Program-made: the position numbers and the translations under genes | Assembly: GCA_020073005.1 (NCBI GenBank) | Contig: JAIQFX010000062.1 | Coordinates: 1 to 36,062 of the forward strand | DNA length: 36,062 bases | Direction of reading: 5' to 3' | Source of the DNA: Terriglobia bacterium | GTDB lineage: Bacteria; Acidobacteriota; Vicinamibacteria; Vicinamibacterales; CAVVIG01 | Shown: positions 1-21,395 of the stretch, piece after piece | Position numbering within the stretch: position 1 is the first letter of the stretch | How the letters are laid out: each line of letters starts with the position of its first letter | Notes under the pieces: generated by a model | Seen by the model: only the letters and a program-made list of their open reading frames with translations | What the model was told of the DNA's origin: nothing | The model's database searches: none

Positions 1-46
1 AGACGACGAGGGCGTGCCGCACTGAGCGCTTGAGCGTCGCCGCCAT
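1..46 (-). CDS. possible 5' end of a truncated gene
   Basis: An ATG at 46-44 opens a minus-strand frame that runs off the window, reading MAATLKRSVRHALVV. A basic stretch followed by hydrophobic residues would suit a signal peptide or membrane anchor. The gene would lie just downstream of the gamma-glutamyltransferase on the same strand, with the 45-80 repeat between them. Only 15 codons are visible, so no family can be named. The alternative is non-coding sequence, or the tail of a plus-strand gene ending at the TGA at 31-33. Confidence 0.25.
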   Translation of the reverse strand, partial: MAATLKRSVRHALVV

Positions 47-80
47 TACCCAATTACCCATTTGCCCACTTACCCAATTC
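45..80. repeat. octamer tandem repeat (TTACCCAA type)
   Basis: About four degenerate 8-nt units of the form (A/C)(A/T)TTACCC or ATTTGCCC are visible. The array lies 3 nt beyond the stop codon of the gamma-glutamyltransferase gene and fills the gap to the next putative start. The same repeat type occurs at 18211-18242. Confidence 0.7.
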
Positions 81-82
81 AT

Positions 83-1765: not shown

Positions 1766-1804
1766 GGTGGTTGATTCTACCGAGATTCCGCTATTCTTAC
1801 GCGC
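1766..1804. promoter_or_regulatory. divergent leaderless promoter region
   Basis: Only 39 bp separate the two start codons. On the minus strand a TAGAAT box (1779-1774) lies 8 nt before the ggt ATG. On the plus strand a TATTCT box (1792-1797), with a weak TTGATT -35 at 1771-1776, lies 7 nt before the hydrolase ATG. Neither gene has a Shine-Dalgarno sequence, so both mRNAs probably begin at or very near the start codon. The two promoters overlap, so they may compete. Confidence 0.55.
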
Positions 1805-2497
1805 ATGGCTGAAACAGTGGAGTTCAAGAGCAACGGCGGCACCGCGTCAGGGTATCTGGTCAAGCCGCCAACGGGTTCCGGTCCGGGCGTGCTCGTCATT
1901 CAGGAATGGTGGGGGCTCGACGCGAGCCTCAAGCAGACGACGGATCAAATCGCTGCGGCGGGGTTCGTCGCGCTCGCGCCCGATCTTTATCACGGCGAGC
2001 TCGCCGGTCACACCGAGATGGACAAGGCGGGCAAGCTGATGCAGAGCCTCCCGCCCGATCGCGCGGCGCGCGACATGAGCGGCGCCGTGGACTATCTCGC
2101 CAATCACAAGGCCGTCACGAGCAAGGGCATCGGCGTCGTCGGCTTCTGCATGGGCGGCATGCTGTCGTTCCTCATCGCGGCCAATCGCGGCGACAAGGTG
2201 AAAGCGCTCGTCCCGTTCTACGGGTTCCCGCAGGGCGCGATGGAGCCGGACTGGTCCAAGCTGCACGCGAAGGTGCGCGGGCACATGGCGGAGCACGACG
2301 GCTTCTTCAAGCCGGAAGCCGCGCGCGCGCTCGAAGTGAAGCTGCGATCGATGGGGAAGGACGTGCTGCTGACCGTCCATCCGGGCACGGGCCACGCGTT
2401 CATGGGCCCGCACAACGCGCTCGGGACATTGAACAAGGAACTGGCCGCGCGCATCTGGCCCGAGGTGTTCAAGTTCCTGAAGGACACGCTGCACTGA
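1805..2497 (+). CDS. dienelactone hydrolase family protein
   Basis: This is a 230-residue cytoplasmic alpha/beta hydrolase of the dienelactone hydrolase family, with no signal peptide. The expected catalytic residues are present: Cys115 in GFCMGG as nucleophile, Asp165 in the AEHDGFF segment, His197 in HPGTGHAFMG, and the helper Glu34 in VIQEWWGL. Classical members open the lactone ring of dienelactone in chlorocatechol breakdown. No other aromatic-degradation genes lie nearby, so the real substrate is unknown. Many family members in heterotrophs are general carboxylesterases. A TATTCT box 7 nt before the ATG suggests a leaderless mRNA. The gene is divergent from ggt. Confidence 0.93.
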   Translation: MAETVEFKSNGGTASGYLVKPPTGSGPGVLVIQEWWGLDASLKQTTDQIAAAGFVALAPDLYHGELAGHTEMDKAGKLMQSLPPDRAARDMSGAVDYLANHKAVTSKGIGVVGFCMGGMLSFLIAANRGDKVKALVPFYGFPQGAMEPDWSKLHAKVRGHMAEHDGFFKPEAARALEVKLRSMGKDVLLTVHPGTGHAFMGPHNALGTLNKELAARIWPEVFKFLKDTLH

Positions 2498-2499
2498 GA

Positions 2500-2712
2500 A
2501 TGGAGTCTATGTTCGGAACACTCGTTCCGACGTTCGTCGTCGTCGGCTGGAGCGGATCGGGCGGCGACGCGTTTCCGTTCTACTTCCGCGAGACCGGGCT
2601 CGGCCCGCGGATGGCCGCGCAGCCGACGGCGCCGGCGCAGCCGCCGTTTCGAGAAGCGGACGCCGGGCGGGCAGTGAGATCGCCAGCCTGCCTATGGCAT
2701 AATTATTTATAG
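2500..2712 (+). other. weak ORF downstream of hydrolase, possible gene remnant
   Basis: An open frame of 70 codons starts with ATG 3 nt after the hydrolase stop and ends at a TAG at 2710-2712, just before the small transcription unit. The first half uses GC-ending codons and encodes a short hydrophobic stretch (LVPTFVVVGW), while the second half is Ala/Pro/Arg-rich and looks non-genic. A GGAG precedes a second in-frame ATG at 2509 by only 3 nt. I recognise no family. It could be a decayed gene end or simply a GC-rich open frame. Confidence 0.2.
2695..2703 (+). promoter_or_regulatory. extended -10 promoter element
   Basis: TGGCATAAT matches an extended -10 (TG, one base, then CATAAT). It lies in an unusually AT-rich patch in an otherwise GC-rich window. 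A transcript would start near 2710, a few nt before the 24-codon ORF. No good -35 is visible, which fits an extended -10 promoter. Confidence 0.45.
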
Positions 2713-2714
2713 AG

Positions 2715-2789
2715 ATGTTCCGCGGTCTGCTGATTTCCCTGCTGCTTATTGGCGTCGGCCTTCGAGCCGACGCGCGTGGGGTGATCTAG
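2715..2789 (+). CDS. 24-residue hydrophobic micropeptide
   Basis: The ATG at 2715 opens a 24-codon frame, MFRGLLISLLLIGV followed by a short charged tail, ending in TAG. The peptide is one hydrophobic segment with an Arg at position 3, like a small single-pass membrane peptide or a leader peptide. It is the only frame inside a compact unit with an extended -10 upstream and a perfect intrinsic terminator 30 nt downstream. It could be a membrane micropeptide, the leader of an attenuator for the Pro-rich ORF downstream, or an untranslated small RNA that happens to contain an ORF. No Shine-Dalgarno is seen; the leader would be only about 5 nt. Confidence 0.4.
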   Translation: MFRGLLISLLLIGVGLRADARGVI

Positions 2790-2819
2790 CCGGAGCCGAC
2801 CGAACAGCGCGTTCAGCCG

Positions 2820-2854
2820 AGGGCCATCACCTCACCAGGTGATGGCCCTTTTTC
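2820..2854 (+). terminator. rho-independent terminator
   Basis: A perfect 13-bp stem (2820-2832 with 2837-2849, arm AGGGCCATCACCT) and a 4-nt CACC loop are followed by a T-rich run starting at 2849. It is the clearest intrinsic terminator in the window. It closes the transcript that starts near 2710 and also lies downstream of the dienelactone hydrolase gene. Confidence 0.9.
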
Positions 2855-2870
2855 TTTGTGCCTGTGTGGA

Positions 2871-3068
2871 ATGACATACCGGAGACCGACCGTGCGCCAC
2901 CCGAGACCGACCTTCTATACGCCGCCCACACCCACGCACACCGCGTGGCCGCGTCCGCGCGAGCCGCAGCCGCCCTCGCCGGATCCGGTCGAGGTCCGCG
3001 GCCCCGTCGAACCGCACAAGGACGAGGACCGTCCCTCGGACGAGCCCGGCTACGGCCACGGCGTCTGA
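2871..3068 (+). CDS. hypothetical Pro-rich small protein
   Basis: A 65-residue frame starts at ATG 2871 (MTYRRPTVRHPRP...) and ends in TGA at 3066-3068, 31 nt before the next gene. Seventeen residues are Pro. The first half is basic, and the second half is acidic (HKDEDRPSDEPG). Codon third positions are almost all G or C, as in the real genes nearby, and the stop lies neatly before the next gene. There is no signal peptide or membrane segment. It would be disordered. A competing frame starting at 2858 covers the same DNA and looks less protein-like. Function is unknown, and it may not be a gene. Confidence 0.4.
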   Translation: MTYRRPTVRHPRPTFYTPPTPTHTAWPRPREPQPPSPDPVEVRGPVEPHKDEDRPSDEPGYGHGV

Positions 3069-3099
3069 TATCCTCTGCGCAACGATAACGGAGGACCTC

Positions 3100-3714
3100 A
3101 TGCGCATGCTTCACACGGCTCTCGTGATTTCAGTCGTCGCGGCGTCCGCGGCGATGCTCGGCGCGCAGGCGCCCGCTGGCGCTGGACAACGCGGTGGCGG
3201 ACAGCGCGGAGGCACGCCTCCACCGCCCGCGATGACGCTGACGACGACGGCGTTTCCGGACGGCGGGATCATCCCGCCGCGGTTCACGCAGGCGGGCGAG
3301 CAGACGTCGCCGGCGCTTGTGTGGACGAACACGCCGCCAGGTACGCAAAGCTTCGTCCTGCACATGCACGATCTCGAAGTCGCGCGCAACAAGACGACTG
3401 ATGATCAGGTCCACTGGGTCGTCTGGAACATTCCTGCGACGGCGACCGGACTTCCCGAAGGCGTGCCGGCCGGAGCGGATCGTCCGGATGGCAGTCATCA
3501 GATCAGCGCGAGCGGTCCCATGTATCGCGGTCCCGGCGCTGGCGCGAACGGACCGATGCATCACTACACGTTCGAGATCTACGCGCTCGATACGAGGATC
3601 GACGTGCCCGCGTCGACCGATGCGTTCGAGACGCGCGCGAACGTCATGAAGGCGATCCAGGGCCACGTGCTCGGCAAGGCGGTCTACATGGGTTTGTTCA
3701 AGCGGCCGCAGTAA
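3100..3714 (+). CDS. YbhB/YbcL family (PEBP-like) exported protein
   Basis: The product is a 204-residue member of the phosphatidylethanolamine-binding / Raf-kinase-inhibitor-like fold in its bacterial YbhB/YbcL form. A signal peptide (residues 1-22, ending LGAQA) is followed by a Gly/Arg/Pro-rich linker to about residue 43 and then the PEBP domain. Family landmarks are SPALVWTNTPPGTQSFVLHMHD, the HWVVWNIP strand, and the GPMHHYTFEIYALD segment near the ligand pocket. Bacterial members bind small anions or lipids and have no firmly known role. GGAGG lies 6 nt before the ATG at 3100, so this gene, unlike several neighbours, has a normal ribosome binding site. The next gene follows after 11 nt, suggesting co-transcription. 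Confidence 0.93.
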   Translation: MRMLHTALVISVVAASAAMLGAQAPAGAGQRGGGQRGGTPPPPAMTLTTTAFPDGGIIPPRFTQAGEQTSPALVWTNTPPGTQSFVLHMHDLEVARNKTTDDQVHWVVWNIPATATGLPEGVPAGADRPDGSHQISASGPMYRGPGAGANGPMHHYTFEIYALDTRIDVPASTDAFETRANVMKAIQGHVLGKAVYMGLFKRPQ

Positions 3715-6446: not shown

Positions 6447-8900
6447 TCATTCCGCGCGGAGCGCCTCGGCAGGATCCACGGTCGCGGCGCGGAGCGCCGG
6501 TACGTAGCTCGCCAGGACCGCCGCCGACACGAGGCCGAGCGACACGCCCGCGTACGTCAGCGGATCGACGGGGCTCACGTCGAACAGCAGCGTCGCCATC
6601 AACCGCGTCAGACCTACGGCCGCGAGGAGACCGATCGCGATCCCGACGACCGCGAGCCGCAGCCCCTGACCGACGAACATTCGCGTCACTTCCTCGCGCT
6701 GCGCGCCCAGCGCCATCCGGATTCCGATCTCGCGCGCGCGCTGCGACACCGCGTACGAGATGACGCCGTAGAGCCCGGCGACGCCGAGCAGCAGCGCCAT
6801 CGCGCCCGCGATCGACAGCATGACCAACGTGAACGACGTCCGCGCCATCGACTTGTCCGTGACTTCCTGCATCGTCCGCACTCTTGCGACCGGCAGGTCG
6901 GGATTCAACGACCAGATCGCGCGGCTCACTTCGTTGACGAGGGCGCTCGTTCCGGCGCGGCTGCTCCGGATCACGAACGTCGTGCTTCGCTGCGCGTACG
7001 TCTCGTCGCCTTCAAAGTTCCCCATCAGCATCGGCCAGTAGACGGCCGTCGGCGCCTTCTTGTCGAGGCCATCGTCGCGGACGTCGTTCACGACGCCGAC
7101 GATTTCTCGCCACGGCGAATTATTCGTGGCGCGCACGCGCTTGCCGAGCGCCGCCGACGGCTCGCGCCACAGCTCGCGCGCGAGGTTCTCGGAGACGAGC
7201 GCGACCTGCCGCGTGTCGTAGAGGTCCTCCCACGTGAAGTCCCGGCCGGCGAGCACCTGATTGCCCATCGTCTTGAGCAGGCCCGGCGAGATCATCTTGA
7301 AATGGCGCAGCGGCGGCAGCGTCCCTTCGGGATACGTCGTGCCGTCGGCGAACATCAGGTCGGTCCAGTTGTCGTTGTCCATCGGCAGTCCCGACGCGAG
7401 GCCCACCGACGACACGCCGGAGACGGTTGCGATCCGTTCCGCGATGCGCTGCTCCGCGCGTGTCGCGTCCACGGGATCCGCGACCGCGGTGCTCGGTATG
7501 TAGAGGCGCAGCGTCAGCAGATTCTGTGGCGACGTGAAGCCGGGCTGCACATGCTTCAACGCCTGGAACGTGCGAATCATCAAACCGGAGCCGACGAGCA
7601 GCACGAGCGCGAGCGCGACCTGCGCGACGACGAGCGTGTTGCGCGCGCGATGACGCTCTTTGCTCTGGCTCAGCGTCCGCCCGCCGGCGCGGAGCGCTTC
7701 ATTCAGATGCGGGCCCGCGTACTTGACGACGGGGAAGAGACCGAAGAGCGCGCCCGCGAGCGCCGAGATCGCGAACGTGAAGAGCAGGACCGAGCCGTCG
7801 ATCGTGATCTCGGTCGCGCGCGGCAGGTTCGCCGGCGCGATCGCCGTGAGCACGCGCAGGCCGCCGTACGCCAGGGCGAGTCCGGCCGCGCCGCCCAGCA
7901 CGCCGAGCGCGAGGCTCTCCGTCATCAGCTCGCGCGCGATGCGTCCCCAGCCCGCGCCGAGCGCCGCGCGGATCGCCAGCTCCTGCCGCCGGCCGTCGGT
8001 CCGTACAAGAAGAAGGTTGGCGACGTTCGCGCACGCGATCAGCAGCACGATGCCGATCGTGCCCATCAGCACCCAGAGGACGCGGCCGATGTCGCCGACG
8101 AGATCCTCCTTCAACGGCTGCGGCACCGCCGTGAGCCGAGCGTCCTTGAACAACGTGAGGCTGAATCCAGGAAACGGCGGGAACGTGTCGATCGCGACCG
8201 GAATCAGCCGCGTCATTTCGGCGGTCGCGCGATCGAGCGTCACACCTGGCGCCAGACGCGCGAGGCCGTAGTAGCTGAAGTTGCCGAGAAACGTCTTCGC
8301 GCGGTCCAGCCGCATCGGGCTGAACGCGGACGCCGTCCGATCGAGGAACCGGAACGATTGCGGGAGGACGCCGATCACTTCGCGCGCGCGGCCGTCGAGG
8401 AGGACGCGGCGTCCGATCGCCGCGGGATCGCCGCCGAATCGCGTCTGCCAGTACCCGTAGCTGAGGATCATCGTCTCGGGACTGCCGGGCGTGTCGTCGG
8501 CTCGGGTGAACAGCCGGCCGAGCAGCGGCTTCACGCCCAGCATCGGCAGGATGCCGTCCGTCACGTCCACTATCGGGATCTCCTCGGGATCGCCGAGGCC
8601 GGTGACGCTGTCGGAGTGCCCGCGCCAGATCCCGATGTCGGTGAAGCTCTTCCCCTGCTCGCGGTACGTGAAATAAAGAAATGGTGCGGTACCCGCGTTC
8701 TTGATGTTGACGCCAGGCGCGCTGTGGTTGACCGCGACGAGCGCGTCCGATCCCGGGTACTGCAGCGGCTTTATAAGGATGCCGTTGACCACGCTGAAGA
8801 TGGCGCTGTTGGCGCCGATGCCGATGGCGAGCGTCAGGACCGCGATGCTCGTGAACGCCGGGAACCGGACAAGGCGGCGCAGCAGATGCTTCAGCGGCAT
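6447..8900 (-). CDS. ADOP-family FtsX/MacB-type ABC permease (1)
   Basis: This 817-residue protein has the duplicated permease layout of acidobacterial orphan permeases: MacB periplasmic core, FtsX domain, then the pair again. The first helix is at about 15-38 ([21 protein letters not shown]), the first FtsX block is around [18 protein letters not shown] with the [10 protein letters not shown] motif, the second core is near 440, and the last block carries [11 protein letters not shown]. It ends with DPAEALRAE. The N-terminal cytoplasmic prefix seen in ADOP2-4 is missing. No ATPase gene is near. A TATTAA box 6 nt before the ATG suggests a separate leaderless transcript. MacB relatives couple ATPase movement to periplasmic transport; what ADOPs move is unknown. 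Confidence 0.93.
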
Positions 8901-8906
8901 GACTTC

Positions 8907-8912
8907 TTAATA
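8907..8912 (-). promoter_or_regulatory. -10 box for ADOP1, leaderless
   Basis: On the minus strand TATTAA ends 6 nt before the ATG at 8900. No Shine-Dalgarno is present. The spacing fits a transcript that starts at the start codon. Confidence 0.45.
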
Positions 8913-9009
8913 CGCGATTGCTTGCAGAAAGTTAGGCCGACTTCGTACTTTTTTCATCGGTGCGCCATCGCCCTGTCACGTCTCCCGCGTGTACTGGATC
9001 GTGATCATT

Positions 9010-9732
9010 ATGCCGTCCTTACCGATCCGGTTCCGCACGCTCGTCTTGCTCGCCTGCGCCACTGTGGCCGCCTGCAACTCGTCGAGCACGTCACCCACGA
9101 CGACGACGTCCACGACGACGTCCACGACCACGACGACCACGACGACGAGCGCGACGGTGCCGCCGAACGTGACCGGGGTCAGCCCGAACATCGGCCCGAA
9201 CGAGGGCGGCAGCAACGTGACGATTACGGGCACCGGCTTCACGGGCGCGACGGCGGTGATGTTCAACGATCAGAGCGCCGCGTCGTTCTCCATCCCGTCG
9301 GACTCGACGATCAAGGCCGTCTCGCCGCCGACGCCGCTGCCGGGCGGCGCGACGGTCGACGTCTTCGTCACCACGGCCAACGGCACGAGCGTGGCCGTCC
9401 CGGCCGATCACTTCACGTTCACGCAGAACGTGATGAACCGGTTCACGCTGTCGGACAGTTCGGTGAGGGGTGGCGCGACCATCGTCGGAACGGTCGCCGT
9501 GCAGTACATCGCGCCGGCGGCGGGCTACACGCTGCCGGTGACGTGGTCGTCTGCGCCCGCGAACTCGACGGCGGCGATCGTGCCGGCGTCGATGCGGATC
9601 GAGTCCGGGTTCATCACCGGATCGTTCGCGATCCAGACGCAACCCGTGACGTCGCAGCAGTGCTTTCTGATCGGCGTGACGTTTCCGCCGACGGGAGCCG
9701 GAGCGACCGCGGCGTTCTGCGTCGTGCCCTGA
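9010..9732 (+). CDS. IPT/TIG-domain lipoprotein
   Basis: This 240-residue protein begins at ATG 9010 and has a lipoprotein signal peptide with lipobox VAAC; the lipidated Cys is residue 22. A Thr/Ser-only linker (about 23-48) follows, then an IPT/TIG immunoglobulin-like domain (PPNVTGVSPNIGPNEGGSNVTITGTGFTG..., ending HFTFT near 137). The C-terminal 100 residues are beta-rich with two cysteines and resemble no family I know. An upstream in-frame GTG at 8989 would add 7 residues before the signal peptide, so the ATG is preferred. IPT domains usually serve in surface adhesion or polymer binding. The protein is expected to be anchored in a membrane, with its domains outside the cytoplasm. Confidence 0.85.
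   Translation: MPSLPIRFRTLVLLACATVAACNSSSTSPTTTTSTTTSTTTTTTTTSATVPPNVTGVSPNIGPNEGGSNVTITGTGFTGATAVMFNDQSAASFSIPSDSTIKAVSPPTPLPGGATVDVFVTTANGTSVAVPADHFTFTQNVMNRFTLSDSSVRGGATIVGTVAVQYIAPAAGYTLPVTWSSAPANSTAAIVPASMRIESGFITGSFAIQTQPVTSQQCFLIGVTFPPTGAGATAAFCVVP
9097..9152 (+). repeat. ACG/ACC triplet microsatellite coding for a Thr linker
   Basis: A run of acg/acc/tcc triplets encodes nearly pure Thr with Ser. It is the linker between lipid anchor and IPT domain. Triplet slippage would change linker length in frame. Confidence 0.7.
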
Positions 9733-11919: not shown

Positions 11920-11980
11920 TCAGTAGTCGTTAGTCATTGGTCGTTGGTCGTTAGTCGTTAGTCGTTAGTCGTTAGTCGCG
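11911..11980. repeat. heptamer tandem array (AGTCGTT type)
   Basis: Ten contiguous 7-nt units of the form (A/G)GTC(A/G)(G/T)T (with one agtcggt and a final agtcgcg) cover the last two sense codons and the TAG of the M24 gene and the whole gap to the sigma-factor start. The units are all in register. This resembles the heptameric STRR elements known in cyanobacteria. Confidence 0.85.
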
Positions 11981-11982
11981 AT

Positions 11983-12837
11983 TTGCCTATTCCCGCGAAT
12001 GTCGTCGAGCGCCTTTACCGGCGCAGCCGCGCCTCAGAATGGGGAGTGGCGCCCGGGCGTTTCGCCGGCGCGCTCGCGTCGAGCGTCGACTGGGCGTTCG
12101 CCGGCGCGCACCCGGACGAGGCCGCCGTCGCGCGGTACCTCGAGTCGCTTCACCTCGACGATCTCGCGCTGGCGTGCGCGTGCGCCGACGGCAGCGAGCC
12201 CGCCTGGGATCACTTCGTTCGTGAATTCCGGCCCGTCTTGTACCGATCCGCCGACGCGATCGATCCATCCGGCGGCATGCGCGAGATCGCCGACGCGTTG
12301 TACGCCGATCTCTACGGGTCACTCTTCCGCTACTACCACGGCCGCAGCAGTCTCGCGACGTGGCTGCGCGCCGTGCTCGCGCAACGGCACGTGGACCGCG
12401 TGCGCGTGCAGCGACGTGTCGAGCCGCTGCCTGACGACGATGCGCCGGCGGCGATCGCGACGTCGGCATCCGCGCCGGATCCCGATCGCGATCGGCTGAT
12501 GCCGCTCGTCCAGGCCGCGCTTGTCGCGGCCATCGCGGCGCTTGTCGCACGCGACCGGCTCCGCTTGGCGTGCTACTACACGCAGGGACTGAAGCTCGCT
12601 GAGATCGGACGGCTGATGAGTGAGAGCGAAGCGACCGCGTCGCGGCAGCTCGCGCGGATCCGTCGCGAACTGCGCGACGTCATCGAGCGCGATCTGCGCG
12701 AACGCCAGAAACTGACGGTCGCGGAAGTCGTCCAGGCGCAGCGCTATGCGATGGACGATGCCGGCGCGCTCGATCTGGGCCGGTTGCTCGCGCCGGACGG
12801 CCCGCGCAAGAAATCCTCGCCGGATCGTTCAAGATGA
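11983..12837 (+). CDS. RNA polymerase sigma-70 family (ECF-like) factor
   Basis: The protein has 284 residues from a TTG at 11983; an in-frame GTG at 12046 is an alternative start. Region 2 is readable around PAWDHFVREFRPVLYR to SLATWLRAVLAQRHVDRVR, and region 4 around LACYYTQGLKLAEIGRLMSESEATASRQLARIRREL, with the helix-turn-helix AEIGRLMSESEATASRQL. It is longer than a typical ECF factor (about 180-200), with an Ala-rich linker and a C-terminal tail of about 50 residues. The next gene, 10 nt downstream, encodes a zinc-binding anti-sigma protein, which strongly supports a sigma/anti-sigma pair. It would direct RNA polymerase to envelope-response promoters; targets are not evident. Confidence 0.82.
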   Translation: MPIPANVVERLYRRSRASEWGVAPGRFAGALASSVDWAFAGAHPDEAAVARYLESLHLDDLALACACADGSEPAWDHFVREFRPVLYRSADAIDPSGGMREIADALYADLYGSLFRYYHGRSSLATWLRAVLAQRHVDRVRVQRRVEPLPDDDAPAAIATSASAPDPDRDRLMPLVQAALVAAIAALVARDRLRLACYYTQGLKLAEIGRLMSESEATASRQLARIRRELRDVIERDLRERQKLTVAEVVQAQRYAMDDAGALDLGRLLAPDGPRKKSSPDRSR

Positions 12838-12847
12838 GGAGACTGGT

Positions 12848-13828
12848 GTGACGCCCGAACACGAGCCGTCCCCGCAGTGTCTCGACGCCGAAACCATGGC
12901 GGCGTGGGTGGACCGCGCGCTGCCTGCGGCGGAAGCCGCCGCTGCCGAAGCGCACGTGGCCGACTGCGCGCGCTGTCAGCAGATGCTGGCCGCGCTCGTC
13001 ACGTCGATGCCGGCCGTCGCCGAGCCGTCGCCCTGGTGGCGGCGTCCATGGGTCATCGGACTCGTGCCGCTGGCCGCCGGTTCACTGGCGCTGGCATTCT
13101 GGCTCGTTGTGCCCGGACAGTCACCGCAGACAGCGCCGACAGCGACCACCGCGAACGCGACGACGTCGCGTGCGCCGACTGCCGCCGCGCCTGCGACGCC
13201 GGCGACCTCGCCCGCGCCTCCTCCGTCGGTTCAAACACTTGCCGAGCGTGTCGAGACGCCGTCCGCGGCGAGTCCCGCTCAGGCGGAGAGCAAGCGGGAC
13301 GTCGAGTCGAGCACGAGCGCCAACGAGGCGCGGCGAAAAGACGCGCCGGCGGCGGCTCCGGCCGCGCCGGCCCCGCCAACTGCCGCGGACGCGCTGCGAC
13401 CCGCTGCCGAGGCTGCGTCCAGAGCCGCCATGCGCGCCGCCGCGGCGCCCACATTAGATAAGGTAGCGACCACGGTGGACGTCATCTCGCCGGACCCCTC
13501 GGTCCGCTGGCGCATCGGCGCGAGCGGATCCGTTCAGCGCTCGACCGACGGCGGCGCCACATGGATCGCGCAGGCGAGCGGCGTCGCGCAGAACCTGACG
13601 GCCGGCGCGTCACCTCAGCGTGACGTGTGTTGGGTCGTCGGCCGCGCGGGCACCGTGCTGCTGTTCACGGACGGCACTCTGTGGAGGCGGCTCGAGTTCC
13701 CGGAAACCGTGGACCTCACGCGTGTGGACGCGCGGGACGCCGCCGCCGCGACCGTCACGGCCGCCGACGGACGCAGGTTCCAGACCGCGGATGGCGGCCG
13801 GACCTGGGGCCGCCTGCAAGATTTCTGA
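12848..13828 (+). CDS. ZAS-type anti-sigma factor with external Ycf48/BNR-like domain
   Basis: This 326-residue protein starts at GTG 12848; GAGGAG lies 6 nt before it and overlaps the sigma-gene stop. The cytoplasmic part has the zinc anti-sigma motif HxxxCxxC (H36, C40, C43, in EAHVADCARC). One transmembrane helix (about 68-88) is followed by an Ala/Pro/Thr-rich stalk (about 90-215). The C-terminal 110 residues carry photosystem-assembly / BNR-type repeats (RSTDGGATWI, TADGGRTWGR), part of a beta-propeller-like fold. The layout is cytoplasmic sigma-binding, membrane anchor, then external sensor. The partner is the sigma factor just upstream, and release would follow a signal at the cell surface. 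The external domain on an anti-sigma factor is the unusual part. Confidence 0.85.
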   Translation: MTPEHEPSPQCLDAETMAAWVDRALPAAEAAAAEAHVADCARCQQMLAALVTSMPAVAEPSPWWRRPWVIGLVPLAAGSLALAFWLVVPGQSPQTAPTATTANATTSRAPTAAAPATPATSPAPPPSVQTLAERVETPSAASPAQAESKRDVESSTSANEARRKDAPAAAPAAPAPPTAADALRPAAEAASRAAMRAAAAPTLDKVATTVDVISPDPSVRWRIGASGSVQRSTDGGATWIAQASGVAQNLTAGASPQRDVCWVVGRAGTVLLFTDGTLWRRLEFPETVDLTRVDARDAAAATVTAADGRRFQTADGGRTWGRLQDF

Positions 13829-13871
13829 GCGGCGCCGTTCAAGGGTCAGAAGCGCCTGAAAGGAGCCTCTG

Positions 13872-15338
13872 ATGACCCTGAAAGTCTGGACCGCCGCAGC
13901 GGCCATCGTTGCCGCGTCCGTCACTCTCCCGCGCCACACGCCGGTTGCCATCGCGCACGCCGAACCGCGCGATCAGGACCGCGGCACCACGCTCGACGAT
14001 CAAGTCGAGCTTGGGCTCACCGTCTACAACTCCGACATCGCGCTGGTGCGCGACGTGCGCATGCTCAACCTCGCGCGCGGCACGTCCGATCTCAAGTTCA
14101 TGGACATCGCCGCGACCGTCAATCCCGCGACCGTGCATTTCCGATCGCTCACCGAGCCGGGCCGCGTGAACGTGCTCGAGCAGAACTACGAGTACGACCT
14201 GCTCGAGCCGGAAAAGCTGCTGCGCAAGTACGTCGGCCGCGACGTCACGCTGGTGCGTACGCGCCAGCAGGACGGCTCGACGATGGAGGAGGAGACGAAG
14301 GCGCGGCTGCTCAGCTACAACGGCGCGCCGGTCTGGCAGATCGGCGGTGAAATCGTCACCGGCATGCGCGCGGATTCGATGCGGTTCCCTGAGCTGCCGG
14401 CGAGTCTCTACTCGCGGCCGACGCTCGTCTGGACGCTCGACAACACCGGCGCGGCGCGTCACCGCGTCGAGGCGTCGTATCTGGCGGGCAAGCTCTCGTG
14501 GTCGTCGGACTACGTGCTGCGCGTGGCGCGCGACGATCGAACGGCTGATCTCGACGGCTGGGTGACGCTGACCAACGGCAGCGGCACCGCGTTTCGCAAC
14601 GCCCGGCTTCAGCTCGTCGCCGGCGACCTGCACCGCGTCCGTCAGGTGCTGAACAAGGTGATGGCCGATGAAATGCGCGCGGCCGCGCCTGCGCCCCCCT
14701 CCTCAATGGTGCAGGAGAATTTCTCCGACTATCACCTCTACACGGTGAACCGGAAGACCACCATCAACAACAGCCAGACCAAGCAGGTCAGCATGCTCGA
14801 AGGCGCCGGCGTGCCCGTGAAGAAGCGCTACGTGGTGGACGGCCAGTCGTTCTACTACCGCAACGCGCAGCATCCCGGCGCGCCGCTCAAGGACGTCGTG
14901 CAGGTGTACTACCAGTTCAGGAACGAGGATGGCCACGGGCTCGGCGTGCCGATGCCGGCCGGCGTCGTCCGCGTCTATCAGGAGGACTCACACGGCGACA
15001 CGCAGTTCGTCGGCGAGGATCGCATCGATCACACGCCGAAAGGCGAGACGCTGAACCTGAAGATTGGCGACGCGTTCGACGTGATCGCCGAACGGAAGCA
15101 GACCGACTTCCAGAAGATCGCGACCAACGTCTACGAGGTCGCGTACGAGATCACGCTGCGCAATCACAAGGCGGTGCCGATTGGCGTCGAGGTCAACGAG
15201 CCGATCGGCGGCACGTGGCGGATCCTGACGTCCTCGCACGAGTGGACGAAGACGGACGCGTGGGCCGCGCAGTTTCAGGTGCCCGTCGCCGCGGACGGGG
15301 CGGCGGTGCTGAAGTACCGGGTACGGGTGACGTATTAG
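13872..15338 (+). CDS. DUF4139 domain-containing exported protein
   Basis: The protein has 488 residues with a signal peptide (1-30, ending AHA). The sequence NSDIALVRDVRMLNL, VNPATVHFRSL, EQNYEYDLLEPEKLLRKYVG and the later VYYQFRNEDGHGLGVPMPAGVVRVY follow the DUF4139 pattern, a family of large beta-rich secreted proteins of unknown function. AAGGAG lies 7 nt before the ATG, and the gene follows the anti-sigma gene after 43 nt, so it is probably in the same transcription unit and may be one of the outputs or sensors of that pair. The stop codon TAG lies in the first unit of a heptamer array (15337-15392). Confidence 0.85.
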   Translation: MTLKVWTAAAAIVAASVTLPRHTPVAIAHAEPRDQDRGTTLDDQVELGLTVYNSDIALVRDVRMLNLARGTSDLKFMDIAATVNPATVHFRSLTEPGRVNVLEQNYEYDLLEPEKLLRKYVGRDVTLVRTRQQDGSTMEEETKARLLSYNGAPVWQIGGEIVTGMRADSMRFPELPASLYSRPTLVWTLDNTGAARHRVEASYLAGKLSWSSDYVLRVARDDRTADLDGWVTLTNGSGTAFRNARLQLVAGDLHRVRQVLNKVMADEMRAAAPAPPSSMVQENFSDYHLYTVNRKTTINNSQTKQVSMLEGAGVPVKKRYVVDGQSFYYRNAQHPGAPLKDVVQVYYQFRNEDGHGLGVPMPAGVVRVYQEDSHGDTQFVGEDRIDHTPKGETLNLKIGDAFDVIAERKQTDFQKIATNVYEVAYEITLRNHKAVPIGVEVNEPIGGTWRILTSSHEWTKTDAWAAQFQVPVAADGAAVLKYRVRVTY

Positions 15339-15392
15339 TAGTCGGTAGTCGAGAGTCAGTAGTCGAGAGTCAGTAGTCGAGAGTCAGTAGTC
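15337..15392. repeat. heptamer tandem array (GAGAGTC/AGTAGTC)
   Basis: Eight contiguous heptamers, mostly GAGAGTC alternating with AGTAGTC, begin at the second base of the DUF4139 TAG stop codon and run to 15392. The array is directly followed by the competing hairpin element at 15397-15464. Confidence 0.85.
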
Positions 15393-15396
15393 ATGC

Positions 15397-15464
15397 CATG
15401 TCCGCCCGCCTGGGAGTTCCCGGGCGGGTCCGGATAACACCGGACACAACGGCGGGCGGCCATG
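15397..15464 (+). other. structured element with competing hairpins
   Basis: Three pairings are visible. Outer: 15397-15410 with 15451-15464, 13 of 14 positions complementary. First inner: 15405-15415 with 15418-15428, 10 of 11 with one G-U. Second inner: GTCCGG 15428-15433 with CCGGAC 15440-15445 around a 6-nt ATAACA loop. The outer stem and first inner hairpin share 15405-15410, so they exclude each other. No T-run follows. The element lies in the leader side of the kinase gene. Confidence 0.5.
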
Positions 15465-15540
15465 ACCCAATAACCAACTCAACCACTCACCGAACAATTA
15501 TCCGCTTACCAACGGGCGCCGCAGTTCCCTGCTGCCACGC

Positions 15541-15546
15541 TAGAAT
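15541..15546 (+). promoter_or_regulatory. -10 box for the kinase gene
   Basis: TAGAAT lies 18 nt before ATG 15565 and 3 nt before GTG 15550. A start site about 7 nt downstream of the box would fall beyond the GTG, which favours the ATG with a leader of about 12 nt. Confidence 0.45.
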
Positions 15547-15564
15547 GCCGTGTCCGGTGCCCGC

Positions 15565-18192
15565 ATGCTTGGCAAGACGCTCCATCACTACCGGATCCTC
15601 CGGTCGCTTGGCTGCGGGGGTATGGGCGAGGTCTATGCCGCCGAAGACACGAAGCTCAATCGCATCGTCGCTCTGAAAGTCCTGGCGGGGTTGACGGCGA
15701 CCGACCCCGAGCGGCTCAGCCGATTCCAGCGCGAAGCCAAGGCGATCGCCGCGATCAACCATCCGAACATCGTCACGATCTATTCAGTGGAAGAAGCCGA
15801 GGCGGGCGGCGTTCCGTTCCTGACGATGGAGCTCGTCGAAGGGAAGCCGCTGGACGCGCTGATCCCGCGGCGCGGCATGAAGCCGGCCGCACTGCTCGAC
15901 CTCGCCGTGCCGTTGGCCGACGCCGTCAGCGCGGCGCACCAGCGCGGCATCGTGCATCGCGATCTCAAGCCGTCCAACATCATGATCCGCGACGACGGCC
16001 GGCTGAAGGTACTCGACTTCGGGCTCGCGAAGTTGCGGCAGGAAACGGCGGACGCGCCGGGCGCAGAGGCCGCGACGATCGAACAGCTCACCGCGCGCCA
16101 TGGCGTGATCGGCACGGCGGCGTACATGTCGCCCGAGCAGGCTGAAGGGCGGCCCGTCGATCATCGCTCCGACATCTTCTCGCTCGGCATCCTGCTGTAC
16201 GAGATGGCGACCGGCACGCGCCCGTTCAAGGGCGAGTCGGCGATGTCCATTCTCTCGGCGGTCATCAAGGACGCGCCGGTCCCTGCTGCCGACGTCAACC
16301 CGGGCATCCCGCCGGAGCTTGACCGGGCGATTCGCCGGTGTCTCGCGAAGGATCCGGCGCGGCGGTACCAGAGCGCGGCCGACCTGCGCAACGATCTCGA
16401 GGATCTGGCGCAGGCGCACCCGGCCGGGCGGCGCCCACTCGCGGGCCGCCGCGCGATACAGGGGCTCGCCGTGGTCGCGACACTCGCCCTCGCGATCGCG
16501 GCCACCGTGGTGGTCTCGCGCGGTCGCGGCGATCGTGTGCCAGCGGCGACGTTCACCACGTTGACGTCGATGCCGGGCAGGGAATGGTTTCCGAGTTTGT
16601 CGCCCGACGGCAAGTGGGTCGTCTACGGCGCCGAGACGGAAGGGAATTTCGACATCTTCCTGCAGAGCGTCTCCGGCTCGAATCCGGTCAACCTGACCAA
16701 GGATTCCGCGGCCGACGACGACATGCCCGCGTTCTCGCCAGACGGCGAGCGCATCGCGTTTCGATCGAGCCGCGACGGCGGCGGCATCTTCGTCATGGGA
16801 CGAACGGGCGAAGCCGTCAGGCGCGTGACGCGCAGCGGGTTCAATCCGGCCTGGTCTCCTGACGGGATCGAGCTCGCGTTCACCACGGGCCGGATGGACA
16901 TCAACCCGCAGAACTCCGAGGGCGTGAGCGAGCTGTGGGTCGTCTCCGCGACCGGTGGCGAGCCGCGGCGCGTTTTCGCAGGCGATGCGATTCAACCGAA
17001 CTGGTCACCCCACAAACGGCGGATCGCCTTCGCGCGACGCGGTGGCCCGGCCCGGACAACGGATATCTGCACGATCCTGCCAGGGCAAGGCGAGCCGGTC
17101 ACGCTGATGAACGATGCCCCACTGGACTGGAATCCGATCTGGTCGCCGGACGGCACGCACATGTATTTCGTGAGCGATCGGTCCGGCACGATGAACCTCT
17201 GGCGAATGGCGATTGACGAGGAGACTGGCAGAGCGCGCGGCGAGCCCGAGCCCATCGTGACGCCCGCGCCGTTTTTCGCGCATCCCACCATCTCGGTCGA
17301 CGGCAGGCATCTCGCCTACAGCTCGGTGCTGAGAACGACGAACATTCAACGGCTCGCACTCGATGCGTCCGCGAAGCCGGCCGGCGATCCCGTGTGGGTC
17401 ACGAGCGGCTCGCGTCTCTGGTCCGATCCTGATCCGTCACCGGATGGACAGTTTGTCGTGTACTACTCGAACGTCCAACCGGTGGGTCATCTGTATGTCA
17501 GCCGGATCGACGGCACGGGCCAGCGCCAGCTGACGGGCGATTCCGCGGCCGATCGTGTGCCGCACTGGTCGCCGGACGGCGCGTGGATTTCGTTTTTCTC
17601 GAACCGATCGGGACGACTGCAGATCTGGAAGATCCGCCCCGATGGAAGCGATCTCCAGCAGCTGACCGACGCGCCCGACGAATTGGCGTACTCGACCTGG
17701 TCCCCGGATGCGTCGCGAATCGCGGCCGCGACCCCGCGCGCCGGGCGCGCCGGAGGCCAGCCGACGACGTACCTCACTGAGACTGGTCAGCGCTGGAGCG
17801 AGCAGCGCCCGGCGACGTTGCCGCCGATTCCCGGCAGTCCGTATTCGCTGGCGCCAAACGGCTGGTCGCCGGACGGCCGGCGGCTGATCGGATTCACCGG
17901 ACCAACGTCGCCGTCATCGGGCGTGATGATGTACACGTTCAAGACGCAGACGTACGAGCGGCTCACGAATTTTGGCGAGTGGCCGGTGTGGCTGCCGGAC
18001 AGCCGGCGCGTGCTGATGGGTGACGGCGGGAAGCAGTTCTGGCTGCTGGACACACAGACGAAGCAGACGAAGGTGATCTATTCCGGCGGCCGCGACGTTC
18101 TCGGTCCGCCCCGCCTCGCGGCCGATGGCCGGACCATGTACTACTCGCGTCGCGTCACTGAAGCGGACATCCACCTGATGACGCTGCGGTGA
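15565..18192 (+). CDS. transmembrane Ser/Thr protein kinase with TolB/PD40 propeller
   Basis: This 875-residue Hanks-type kinase is taken from ATG 15565 ([12 protein letters not shown]), the start typical of its family; the upstream GTG at 15550 would lie before the probable transcription start. Kinase landmarks: Gly loop [10 protein letters not shown] (15-24), K38 in VALKVL, E57 in the C-helix, HRDLKPSN with D133, DFG with D151, and the activation segment [10 protein letters not shown]. One transmembrane helix lies at about 298-318. The outer part (330-875) holds many PD40/TolB-type repeats with SPDG signatures ([35 protein letters not shown]), forming a beta-propeller sensor. It is expected to sense a cell-surface ligand and phosphorylate cytoplasmic proteins; neither is known. 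It follows the sigma/anti-sigma/DUF4139 genes on the same strand. Confidence 0.94.
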
Positions 18193-18210: not shown

Positions 18211-18242
18211 CCCACTTACCCAATTACCCACTTATCCAATTA
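18211..18242. repeat. octamer tandem array (CCCAATTA/CCCACTTA)
   Basis: Four 8-nt units, with the last (TCCAATTA) containing the three bases of the TldD stop codon (TAA on the minus strand, 18242-18240). The array fills the gap between the convergent kinase and TldD genes and may serve both 3' ends. Confidence 0.8.
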
Positions 18243-19889
18243 CGCGTACGCCGCCCCGACCATGATCTTCTTGATCCGGATCGTCGGCGAGCCGTGCGAG
18301 ATGCTGTTGGTCTGCGTCGGCTGACCCTTCGCGTCGCCGCCGGTGCCGTACATCCGCCACGTCTCCGGACCGCCGATCGCGTCGAGGTTCGCCCAGAAGT
18401 CGGTCGTGATGGCGTTGTAGGTGACGTCGGTGACCATCCGCGTGATCTTGCCGGCTTTGATTTCCCAGAAGCAGTTGCCGCCGAACTGGCCGTTGTAGCG
18501 CTGCTGATCGATCGAGTAGCTGCCGCGGCCGTCGATGAGGACGCCGTCCCTGGTGTCCGCGATGATCTGTTCCTGTGTCGGCGATCCCTTGGGCCCCGCT
18601 TCGAGCCGCACGTTCGGCATCCGCAGGAACGGGTAGTCGCGCCACGACGAGGCGGACGTGCAGCCTTTGCTCGCCTTGTCGTTGATGAGCGGCGCCGTTT
18701 CGCGATTCGTCTGCAGGCCGACGAGAATGCCTTCCCGCACGATCGGAAACTCCATCGTCTTGACGCCGTCATCGTCGTAGCCGACAGTCGCCAGCGCGCC
18801 GGGCATCGTCCGATCGCCCGTGATGTTCATCAGCTTCGAGCCGTACTTCAACTTGCCGACGTCGGTCAGCTTCACGAAGCTCGTCCCGGCGTAATTCGCT
18901 TCGTACCCAAGGACCCGGTCGAGCTCGGTCGCGTGGGCGACGATCTCGTGGATCGTCAGCATCGCGTGCGACGGCGTCAGCACGAGATCCTTCAGGCCCA
19001 TGCCGACCGGCTTCGCGGTCGTCATCTCGACGGCGTCGTTGGCGATGCGCTCGACGTTCTCGAGCAGATCGCCTTCCTCGGCGACTTCCCAGCCGCCGGT
19101 CTTCGGCACCGCGATGTGGCTGCGCGTCTTCGTCACGTCGCCGACTTTCGCCGACACGTTGAGCGTCGGGTTCAGCTCCCACGTTTCCTGCTCGATGTAG
19201 GAGCCTTCGCTCGACGCGAGGTACTTCCACTCGTTCACGATCTGCACGCCGCAGGTGACGCTGCTGACGCCCTTCACCTTGACGGCCGCATCGACGACCT
19301 TCTGGCAGTACGCCGTCTTCTGATCCTGCGGGATCGTAGACGGGTCCGTCTTGAGCGGCGTCGCCCAGTACTCCTGATACGACGGCACGGGCGCCAGCTT
19401 CACGTCGACCTTCTTCGCGATCGCGCTCGCCTTGGCGACGTCGGTCGCCATCCGCGTGATGCGCCGGATTTCATCTTCAGTGACGATCGGGCTGCTCGCG
19501 AATCCCCAGACGCCGCTGTGGATCACGCGGACGCCGAAGCCCGCCGCGCCGCGACCCGCGCCCCCGCGCCGGCCCGCGCCGCCGCCGCGCCCGAAGCCGC
19601 CACCGCCGCCGCGTCCGCCGCCACCGCCGAATCCGCCGTTGGCGTCGCGGTCAGGACCGCCGCTCGCGTTGACGCCGCTGTTCACGCTGCGCGTGAACCG
19701 GATGTCGGCGTACGTGCAGCCGGCGCGCTTCGCTTCACCGAGCGCGAGATCGGCGAGGCCCTTGAACGACGAGGTCATCGGGTTGCCCTTGGGCGACTGC
19801 GCGATGAGCTCGGCGACCAGATCGCTCGAGGCGATGACCAACCCGGCGGCGCCGGTGTACTTCAGAAAGTCTCGACGTGAAGGGGACAT
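18240..19889 (-). CDS. tldD: TldD-like metallopeptidase with Tat signal
   Basis: This 549-residue member of the TldD/PmbA family begins with a twin-arginine signal (SRRDFLK, then a hydrophobic stretch to residue 30). The zinc motif HEIVAH (H314, E315, H319) followed by ELDRVLGYEANYAGTSF is the TldD signature; C473 in GGNCFWEIKAG is a candidate third ligand. Residues 86-116 are a Gly/Arg-rich insert not typical of TldD. GGAGAAG lies 6 nt before the ATG. The TldE-like partner gene lies 108 nt upstream on the same strand. In E. coli the TldD/TldE pair is a cytoplasmic protease that processes modified peptides (microcin B17, CcdA). Here export is predicted, so the substrate and place of action would differ. 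Confidence 0.9.
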   Translation of the reverse strand: MSPSRRDFLKYTGAAGLVIASSDLVAELIAQSPKGNPMTSSFKGLADLALGEAKRAGCTYADIRFTRSVNSGVNASGGPDRDANGGFGGGGGRGGGGGFGRGGGAGRRGGAGRGAAGFGVRVIHSGVWGFASSPIVTEDEIRRITRMATDVAKASAIAKKVDVKLAPVPSYQEYWATPLKTDPSTIPQDQKTAYCQKVVDAAVKVKGVSSVTCGVQIVNEWKYLASSEGSYIEQETWELNPTLNVSAKVGDVTKTRSHIAVPKTGGWEVAEEGDLLENVERIANDAVEMTTAKPVGMGLKDLVLTPSHAMLTIHEIVAHATELDRVLGYEANYAGTSFVKLTDVGKLKYGSKLMNITGDRTMPGALATVGYDDDGVKTMEFPIVREGILVGLQTNRETAPLINDKASKGCTSASSWRDYPFLRMPNVRLEAGPKGSPTQEQIIADTRDGVLIDGRGSYSIDQQRYNGQFGGNCFWEIKAGKITRMVTDVTYNAITTDFWANLDAIGGPETWRMYGTGGDAKGQPTQTNSISHGSPTIRIKKIMVGAAYA

Positions 19890-19906
19890 ACGTGTCTTCT
19901 CCGTTT

Positions 19907-19988
19907 AACCGCGGAGACCGCCGAGGACGCGGAGCATCTTGTTGCTTTTGTTTCTCAAGCTCCGCGCTCTCCGCGTTCTCTTGCGGTT
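19907..19988. repeat. large imperfect inverted repeat (CGCGGAG type)
   Basis: An arm of 28 nt (19907-19934, starting AACCGCGGAGACCGCC) and an arm of 29 nt (19960-19988, ending TTGCGGTT) are largely complementary and enclose a T-rich loop of 25 nt. Each arm is built from repeats of GCGGAG/CTCCGC. It occupies most of the gap between the TldE-like and TldD genes, within their probable shared transcript. Confidence 0.6.
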
Positions 19989-19997
19989 TGCATTTTC

Positions 19998-21395
19998 TTA
20001 GACTGCAGGGCTGACGGATGTCATGTAGAAGTCTTCAACTCGAATCGCAGGCATCAGCGCGGTGCCTGGACCGTCATACGCCTCGCCCGTGTGAATCGGG
20101 ACCGCTTTGCCGACCGCCGACAGATTCGCGAACGCGACGAGCGGCGACATGTTCCAGCGGAAGTTCTGCACCGGCCCGGCGATCTCGCCGTTCACGATCA
20201 GGAACAACCCGTCGCGCGTCATGCCGGTGTTGAGCAGCGTCAGCGTGTCGACCGGACGCAGATACCAGAAGAACGTCACGAGCAGCCCGCGCCGCGTGGA
20301 CTTGATCATGTCCTCGATGGACTGATTCGTGCCCTCCATCACGAGCGACATGTTCGGATTGGCCGGCGAGGGCGGCACCTTCTGCCGCCGCGCGGTGTTC
20401 GGATCGTAGTAGACGTTCTTCAGCACGCCCTTCTCGATCCACGTCACCGGCTTCGCCGCCGAGCCGTCGTTCATGATCGGCGTCTGCCGCAGGATCGGAT
20501 TGCCGATGTCGCTCTTCAGCGTGAAGCTGTCGCTGAACAGCTTCTGTCCGATCTTCGGCGTCCCGTCCGCCGCGACGAACGGACGGCCGATGCCGCCGAA
20601 GTTGAAGCCGCCGCCGCCGCCGCCGAATCCGCCGCCGCCCTGGCCGGCGTTGAAGGCGCCCATCATTGTTGAAAGAAAGCGCGCGGCCGGACGCGGCTCG
20701 ATGATCGTCGTGTAGCGGCCGGGCTCGATCGCGCGCGGCTTCTGACTCTTCAACGCTTTGTTCGACGCGACTTCGGTCAGCTGCGCGACGTCGATCTGCG
20801 ACAGCTCTTTCGCCCCCGTGATGCCGGACCAGCCCGAACCCGATCCGCTCGCCATGCGGCACGTGAGGATGAATCCGGTTTCCGCGTACTGGTAGTACGC
20901 GAAGAGCCCCTCGGTGTTCGCCTGGCAGTTCGTCTGATACGCCTTCGGGATATAGCCGGCGCCGAGGACGCCTTTCTTCTCGCAGATGTCGACCGACTGC
21001 TTCACCCACTTCGCGCGATCGCCGGGTCCGAAGTCCACCATCTCCTGCAGCGCGGCGTTGACCGGGATGTAGTCCTGCGGTCCCTTCACGAGCGGCGGCA
21101 GGTTCGGATTGTCGCGCGCCTTCTCGGCCGCGCCCTTCGCTTCGTCGACCGCCGCCTTCAGCGAGTCGTCGTCGAACTCGCGCGTCGTCGCGTTGCCGGT
21201 CCTCTGGCCGAGTCGAACGGTGATCGACAAGTTCTGATCGAACTGGACGAGGTTGGTCGTGATCGTCGAGTTCGCCCAGCGCGTGCCGGACCGCTCGCCG
21301 CCGTCGAAGGTCGCCTCGGCGCCATCAGCCTTGGCGTCGCGGGCCATCGTAAGGACTTTGTCGGTTAAGGATTTGATTTCGTCGCGGGAATACAT
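19998..21395 (-). CDS. pmbA: TldE/PmbA-like protein
   Basis: The 465-residue product resembles TldE (PmbA), the non-catalytic partner of TldD: it lacks the HExxxH motif but has the fold landmarks TITTNLVQFDQNLSITVRLGQRTG near the N-terminus and the C-terminal SMNSGMTRDGLFLIVNGEI-like segment (here NTGMTRDGLFLIVNGE). It carries its own Gly-rich insert (251-270) similar in composition to the one in the TldD gene downstream. No signal peptide is seen, unlike its partner. The two genes are co-oriented, 108 nt apart, and probably form one transcript. The complex would need both proteins in one compartment, which is the puzzle here. Confidence 0.85.
   Translation of the reverse strand: MYSRDEIKSLTDKVLTMARDAKADGAEATFDGGERSGTRWANSTITTNLVQFDQNLSITVRLGQRTGNATTREFDDDSLKAAVDEAKGAAEKARDNPNLPPLVKGPQDYIPVNAALQEMVDFGPGDRAKWVKQSVDICEKKGVLGAGYIPKAYQTNCQANTEGLFAYYQYAETGFILTCRMASGSGSGWSGITGAKELSQIDVAQLTEVASNKALKSQKPRAIEPGRYTTIIEPRPAARFLSTMMGAFNAGQGGGGFGGGGGGFNFGGIGRPFVAADGTPKIGQKLFSDSFTLKSDIGNPILRQTPIMNDGSAAKPVTWIEKGVLKNVYYDPNTARRQKVPPSPANPNMSLVMEGTNQSIEDMIKSTRRGLLVTFFWYLRPVDTLTLLNTGMTRDGLFLIVNGEIAGPVQNFRWNMSPLVAFANLSAVGKAVPIHTGEAYDGPGTALMPAIRVEDFYMTSVSPAV

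Follow-up and report, generated by a model that had tools for sequence, protein, structure and literature searches.

Pairs of an extracytoplasmic function (ECF) sigma factor and a zf-HC2 anti-sigma factor generally include an outer sensor, and the anti-sigma gene is probably controlled by its own sigma factor. Here we describe such a pair, followed by a gene for a DUF4139 protein, in a stretch of 36,062 nucleotides from a Terriglobia bacterium of the Vicinamibacterales (Acidobacteriota; assembly GCA_020073005.1, contig JAIQFX010000062.1), which as a whole is called the window. From sequence comparison, we give a probability of roughly three in four to the reading that these three genes work as an ECF switch with feedback, in which the output, DUF4139, stays constant and the sensor can be exchanged. 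All four genes of the original prediction, these three and a kinase, were present at 11983-18192, with the following features.

11983-12837, forward strand: ECF-type sigma factor, 284 amino acids, TTG start; above the TIGR02937 cut-off, below that of TIGR03001
12848-13828, forward strand: membrane anti-sigma factor, 326 amino acids, GTG start; zf-HC2, PSII_BNR and one hydrophobic helix
12896-12979, forward strand: zf-HC2 sigma-binding zinc-finger part with HxxxCxxC; PF13490, 27.9 bits
13052-13108, forward strand: single predicted membrane helix, anti-sigma residues 69-87; Kyte-Doolittle 2.21 over 19 residues
13460-13825, forward strand: three-bladed Ycf48-type propeller piece as modelled, anti-sigma residues 205-326; AlphaFold strands, Ycf48 fold match
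12805-12832, forward strand: promoter-like element CGCAAGAA-N13-CGTTCAA before the anti-sigma gene; second-best site of the window, within the 3' end of the sigma gene
13815-13842, forward strand: promoter-like element TGCAAGAT-N13-CGTTCAA, with the ATG of DUF4139 29 bp further on; best site of the window
13872-15338, forward strand: all-beta DUF4139 protein, 488 amino acids; PF13598, 35.0 bits
15550-18192, forward strand: Ser/Thr kinase with PD40 repeats (Pkinase and PD40 matches), a neighbour judged to lie outside the unit

Motif discovery in 28 regions upstream of DUF4139 returned GCAAGA-N15-GTTCTA with a score of 237.6, compared with 41.9-52.3 in four shuffles. A relaxed search placed the element in 26 of the 28 regions, 24 at fixed spacing; among the exceptions, the spacing was one base longer in L072, the element was degenerate in L054, and in L050 it stood further upstream. 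A scoring matrix built from the 24 fixed-spacing sites alone gave 33.6 at 13815-13842 and 22.6 at 12805-12832 in the window, the next value on either strand being 4.5. When the stretch upstream of DUF4139 was left out, the best site on both strands lay at the anti-sigma gene in 32 of the 36 order loci (those with a sigma gene, the window included). Among the held-out loci, L083, L084 and L091 are not outside the order by title, and the rest carried titles such as Terriglobia, Acidoferrales, gp2 or plain Acidobacteria; the top site on both strands was at the anti-sigma gene or DUF4139 in all 25 that have both genes, and a second site was found at the anti-sigma gene in 16 of 21. Within the source genome, 79 sites came within one mismatch of TGCAAG-N15-CGTTC, and the two window elements ranked highest, at 31.9 (before DUF4139) and 24.9 (before the anti-sigma gene), followed by 16.9. 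Since the reversed core pattern had 96 matches, more than the 79, the number of sites is no evidence in itself, and weight is given only to how they rank and to the comparison with relatives. The window alone held three matches to the core pattern (0.71 expected), a number reached in 5 of 100 shuffles. The spacing of the two blocks is ECF-like, with 18 bases from GCAAG to TCTAA, and with 19 from GGAAC to TCTAA in L135. Conservation of overlapping coding sequence was considered as the cause of the element and rejected, because the element before DUF4139 lies past the anti-sigma stop codon in most loci and the site at the anti-sigma gene lies past the sigma stop codon in L095 and L106.

Gene order was compared in 149 genomes of the order (thresholds: DUF4139, E <= 1e-20; sigma, E <= 1e-15; anti-sigma, E <= 2e-9) and in a set of named loci, the best 80 of 550 from the DUF4139 search, some contigs of which are shared with the order set. 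DUF4139 was found in 45 of the 149 genomes, as a single match each save in G045 (two partial overlapping matches at contig ends), sigma in 52 and anti-sigma in 55. The sigma gene lay upstream of DUF4139 on the same contig and strand in 29 of the 45 DUF4139 genomes, at 905-1698 bp in 28 of them and at 6087 bp in G142; ten more had it on another contig, so that 39 of the 45 had it somewhere. Anti-sigma was present in 43 of the 45, and G052 alone was devoid of both. Sixteen of the 149 genomes had sigma or anti-sigma and no DUF4139. A Fisher value for this co-occurrence is descriptive only, because the genomes of the order are related. Among the best 80 named loci, sigma, propeller anti-sigma and DUF4139 followed one another in 32, some cut by contig ends and one (L088) with its sigma gene in two pieces, and a further 6 had anti-sigma and DUF4139 at the start of a contig. 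As judged from gene order, the conserved unit is one of three genes, sigma, anti-sigma and DUF4139, and not of four. In genome G049 (L072/L088), the two pieces of the sigma match were about 2.7 kb apart, and the elements scored low, 5.4 before the anti-sigma gene and 4.3 before DUF4139.

Across the order, TGCAAGAA-N13-CGTTCTA with at most one mismatch occurred at 62 sites in 46 of the 149 genomes (reversed control, 19 sites). By a hand count from coordinates, 55 of the 62 were assigned to the gene or operon that they precede: 26 to DUF4139, 12 to the anti-sigma gene, 10 to RnfD-like/DUF2330 operons (one of them decayed, in G132), 4 to DUF7918-like genes, 2 to YfbK-type VWA genes and 1 to a VIT-VWA gene. 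The DUF7918-like proteins scored under the Pfam cut-off; DUF2330 was assigned by Pfam scan for L217 and L233, by a model match for G131 and by eye for the other operons. The seven remaining sites were at contig ends (G030, G038) or had matrix scores of 2.3-19.2 (G028, G049, G063, G064, G101). G089 and G131 have no DUF4139; there the site stands ahead of the RnfD-like/DUF2330 operon, some 2 kb upstream of sigma. Of the 46 genomes that have a site, 42 also have sigma or anti-sigma, the exceptions being G063, G064, G101 and G132. The source genome gave no match to the DUF2330 model (which matched in three of four other genomes), the VIT model (control matched in one of 14 genomes) or a DUF7918-like query (a search that had no positive control of its own), and no full counterpart of the YfbK-type VWA protein, nearly all of 45 matches falling in its N-terminal carboxypeptidase-regulatory part. 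Its regulon may therefore consist of the anti-sigma gene and DUF4139 alone.

In the proposed switch, the anti-sigma factor would, by its domains in sequence and model, span the inner membrane once, with a three-bladed Ycf48-type piece at its outer end on a flexible stalk, and its zinc finger would hold the sigma factor, as expected of the zf-HC2 family. A signal at the envelope would inactivate the anti-sigma factor and free the sigma factor for transcription from promoters of the form TGCAAGAA-N13-CGTTCTA, an element found by comparison and presumably used by this sigma factor. Transcription from the site at the anti-sigma gene would raise the level of anti-sigma and give negative feedback, and that from the site at DUF4139 would yield the DUF4139 protein, the putative main output, which is probably exported. 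The DUF2330, VWA/VIT and DUF7918-like genes preceded by the element would be further candidate targets in related genomes.

The anti-sigma gene adjoins the sigma gene and most likely starts at the GTG at 12848, which has a GAGGAG site ahead of it, and not at the open reading frame start at 12746. The product passed the zf-HC2 cut-off (27.9 bits, cut-off 22.2), and HxxxCxxC was kept in all 32 aligned anti-sigma proteins, the window protein among them. It has one hydrophobic helix, a region of low confidence in the AlphaFold model (residues 69-87), followed by an alanine- and proline-rich, disordered stalk some 115 residues long. On average, 31 homologues were 22% identical to the window protein in the stalk and 44% identical both in the zinc-finger part and in the C-terminal domain. 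This C-terminus matched PSII_BNR (Ycf48) at 28.2 bits, barely above the cut-off of 27, over model positions 14-137 of 303; the Ycf48 equivalog NF010237 failed (28.5 bits, cut-off 326). In an AlphaFold model from 32 sequences, residues 205-326 formed twelve strands, which we read as three four-stranded blades, with ten-residue block means of the predicted local distance difference test (pLDDT) of 89-98 from residue 211 onward. The top match by Foldseek and VIA-align was Ycf48 (5ojr_B, residues 57-180; Z 17.8, root-mean-square deviation (rmsd) 1.9, 118 residues). Domain models and hydropathy thus bore out the predicted architecture of HxxxCxxC, one helix, stalk and Ycf48/BNR C-terminus, in which a sensor-like outer domain is fused to a sigma-binding domain. 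The case that would have refuted the prediction, a C-terminus not predicted to fold as BNR/Ycf48, did not arise, given the Ycf48 match at Z 17.8. As a correction, in the model the outer domain is an incomplete propeller, as it has three blades and covers positions 14-137 of the 303 of the Ycf48 model. In a first scan of the named genomes with the anti-sigma sequence, no relatives were found.

An unclosed piece of this kind might need to pair with one or two further copies of itself, and whether that assembly is intact or broken would then be the signal. The three four-stranded blades of the model would fit this, as would a match to 6r5z, a nine-bladed propeller made of three three-bladed chains (Z 14.3, rmsd 2.4 over 116 residues), a Z that is also the level of many ordinary propellers among the fold matches. 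Engineered two- to five-bladed WD40 pieces assemble as homo-oligomers according to PMC6805158, so that an unclosed piece may be completed by self-association. However, some other partner could hold the open edges, and L067, L069 and L071 seemingly lack the first blade and keep two; this was judged by eye, since counts of the Asp-box pattern were too loose, and an alignment test for blade loss detected none. We regard self-pairing as rather unlikely.

The window DUF4139 protein passed PF13598 (35.0 bits, cut-off 31.8) and was 57-74% identical to 18 members of the order. Its model is all-beta (pLDDT 86.5), and its N-terminus resembles a signal peptide by eye (best 19-residue hydropathy 1.56), consistent with a protein that is probably exported and acts outside the inner membrane. 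The MuiA mucoidy inhibitor model TIGR02231 failed (18.7 bits, cut-off 112.6), and by sequence no relative of solved structure was found at a useful E-value. The best Foldseek rows were oligosaccharyltransferase subunits (E 1.9e-5, template modelling (TM) score 0.14), and a second structural comparison gave part-matches with Z of 8.9 or less; given such weak fold matches, no function is claimed. The mentions of DUF4139 found, in the parts of the papers available, gave no function. Other literature searches found no mention of DUF2330, nothing relevant linking an anti-sigma factor with Ycf48 or a Ycf48-like domain (one paper, on chlorophyll) or a beta-propeller with an anti-sigma factor and ECF (papers on other subjects), and nothing on Vicinamibacter together with anti-sigma; the papers listed for the VIT domain or DUF4139 held nothing on such a switch, and the domain terms sought were absent from the available main text of PMC7406223.

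A second link between DUF4139 and ECF control came from more distant loci. In seven loci with titles of Nitrospirae, Nitrospiraceae, Deltaproteobacteria or Omnitrophota (L134, L135, L139, L143, L144, L145, L154), a different ECF sigma factor and zf-HC2 anti-sigma factor stand ahead of a DUF4139 relative, and most of these anti-sigma factors have DUF2275- or weak DUF4349-like matches. A relaxed GGAAC-N-GTCT element precedes DUF4139 in six of the seven, and in L154, whose locus has a VIT-VWA gene as well, it precedes the ECF gene. The strict form occurred in 7 of 75 regions upstream of DUF4139 (0.0017 expected per region), namely in five of the seven ECF-pair loci and in L136 and L140, which showed no ECF gene close by. 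On these sequence grounds DUF4139 has two ties to ECF control, which differ in sensor and in element. In L139, a gene at 8230-9207, metalloprotease-like by eye, lies between the anti-sigma gene and DUF4139. The sensor end also varied beside unlinked sigma genes: by eye, the anti-sigma that follows ended in BNR-type repeats in L236, L238 and L239, the same repeats were seen in a second reading frame in L242, and in L240, L241, L243 and L244 (titles of Pyrinomonadaceae, Blastocatellia or Acidobacteria) the anti-sigma by the sigma homologue ended in a different, shared C-terminal domain and not in a propeller.

These loci bear on the suggestion that DUF4139 may be a ligand or scaffold. If it were the partner of the three-bladed piece, the output would shut the switch off, or its lack would report damage. 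Co-occurrence and linkage favour this; against it, the ECF link of DUF4139 is kept where the anti-sigma has no propeller, and in 16 of 149 genomes sigma or anti-sigma occurs although DUF4139 is absent. Such a partnership seems to us improbable, and DUF4139 is better read as a regulated output than as a ligand, with a return effect on the sensor possible. We also put forward, quite tentatively and as the less probable case, that DUF4139, DUF2330 and VWA/VIT proteins belong to a single, as yet undescribed exported machine, in which they replace one another or act together. The ECF switches would then differ among phyla, and that of Acidobacteriota would read the state of the machine by an unclosed three-bladed propeller, which either itself or a component of the machine would have to complete.

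The correspondence between element and sigma was further examined in 18 genomes of the named loci (those with unlinked DUF4139, or controls), which were searched with the sigma alignment, L092 and L095 serving as positives. An element before DUF4139 (score at least 10) went together with a sigma match in L114 (12.5), L117 (31.5) and L128 (12.8), and by eye in L127. L090, L108, L118 and L131 had neither an element nor a strong sigma match, and L113 had no sequence upstream of DUF4139 to score. Given the mixed outcomes in these genomes, the correspondence is loose outside linked loci.

Several observations weigh against the proposed switch. In the 18 genomes, L111 (10.8) and L115 (24.4) had an element before DUF4139 with weak sigma matches only (E 8e-12 and 3e-14), and L107, L120, L125, L126 and L130 had a sigma match with no scoring element there; the scores of 10.8-12.8 in L111, L114 and L128 fall within the range seen on the other strand elsewhere (up to 15.0). 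No element was found before DUF4139 in L057, one of the 28 upstream regions, and the one in L054 is only degenerate. The test for a site at the anti-sigma gene failed in four of the 36 order loci (L043, L044, L053, L063), gave a best site of low score in L051, L065, L066 and L072, and failed as a second site in five of the 21 held-out loci. Sigma or anti-sigma occurs without any site at one mismatch or less in 18 of the 149 genomes, one of which is the source genome. Both window elements read CGTTCAA, not CGTTCTA, both overlap the last codons of the preceding gene, and at the anti-sigma gene the start codon comes only 15 bp after the element. A motif search before the sigma gene (48 upstream regions) gave no promoter-like element above four shuffles in four of five settings, and in the fifth a score of 51.7 as against 43.0-49.2 in the shuffles.

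Some of these observations suit an explanation in which the element is bound by another regulator or another sigma factor and the neighbouring sigma factor controls something else: L111 and L115 keep the element with weak sigma matches only, and five genomes have sigma and no element. Yet the two blocks stand at ECF-like spacing ahead of start codons, a second site lies at the anti-sigma gene, and 42 of the 46 genomes with the element have sigma or anti-sigma. We hold this explanation to be quite doubtful, and prefer control of the element by the sigma factor of the unit.

That sigma factor passed the ECF superfamily model TIGR02937 (48.7 bits, cut-off 42.9), and the Pfam region 2 and region 4 models were both under their cut-offs. 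Many homologues can be aligned from the first residues after the TTG start at 11983. No sigma subfamily cut-off was passed among the best 25 of 42 families, of which TIGR03001 (Myxococcales sigma family 1) scored best among the curated families and failed (74.8 bits, cut-off 154.6). PMC8999054 gives an ECF270 example from an Acidobacteria bacterium.

As to the kinase, Pkinase and PD40 repeats were matched, in agreement with the prediction of a kinase with its own outside propeller. A kinase-domain match stood directly after DUF4139 in L054 and after the anti-sigma gene in L060, that is, in 2 of 40 fetched loci, and in both it was limited to kinase residues 3-324; of the 29 loci with DUF4139, 23 extend at least 1500 bases past it. 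In six loci (L044, L055, L057, L064, L069, L070), other kinase or PD40 matches lay further away. No window site besides the two elements exceeds 4.5, so none precedes the kinase, and the kinase was rejected as a member of the unit on both counts. The expected conservation of gene order therefore applies to the first three genes, in the order and in other Acidobacteriota, and not to the kinase. Since the kinase is not conserved at its place, the arrangement of two propeller sensors flanking a secreted protein is not conserved either. That anti-sigma, DUF4139 and kinase together make up a single system for surface sensing, with a propeller sensor on each of two proteins, as adjacency on one strand in the window and the outer PD40 propeller of the kinase might suggest, is very improbable in view of the 2 of 40 loci, the restriction to residues 3-324 and the missing element.

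Behind the kinase, on the opposite strand, the window carries TldD/PmbA genes (18240-21395). In L070 (genome G051, 1-3612), unlike in the window, sigma and anti-sigma are directly followed by PmbA and TldD, 61% and 58% identical to those of the window. Tandem GTTAGTC-like repeats at 11930-11978 make up the short gap between an upstream peptidase gene and the sigma gene, and further upstream, at 8989-9732, lies the gene for a protein that is probably secreted and has a long stretch rich in threonine.

If correct, the proposed switch supplies a concrete target promoter and a small regulon for a sigma group whose scores stay below every subfamily cut-off among the best 25 of 42 families, and a regulatory context for DUF4139 and DUF2330 that was not found in the literature searched. 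A membrane switch with an incomplete-propeller sensor would be an unusual design. As the sensor end appears to vary by lineage and the output protein to stay constant, what is learnt from a single cultivable species could apply to several phyla.

Compared with known systems, the locus shares with ECF sigma/zf-HC2 anti-sigma pairs the gene pair, HxxxCxxC, the single membrane helix, the outer sensor and an anti-sigma gene that its sigma probably controls. It differs in its sensor, a three-bladed Ycf48-type piece as modelled, in its putative output, DUF4139, and in its element, TGCAAGAA-N13-CGTTCTA, which stands at the anti-sigma gene with none clear at the sigma gene. TIGR03001 sigma factors are the best curated family for the window sigma, which nevertheless scores under their cut-off. 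The photosystem II assembly factor Ycf48 (PF14870) resembles the outer domain in the sequence of its blades and in their fold (Z 17.8, Ycf48 residues 57-180); Ycf48 is a complete propeller, whereas the window protein has three predicted blades fused to an anti-sigma factor. In the Nitrospirae, Deltaproteobacteria and Omnitrophota loci, a DUF4139 relative (45-48% identical in the best segment) likewise follows an ECF pair and has an ECF-type element ahead of it, but with a sigma type, an outer domain and an element sequence of their own.

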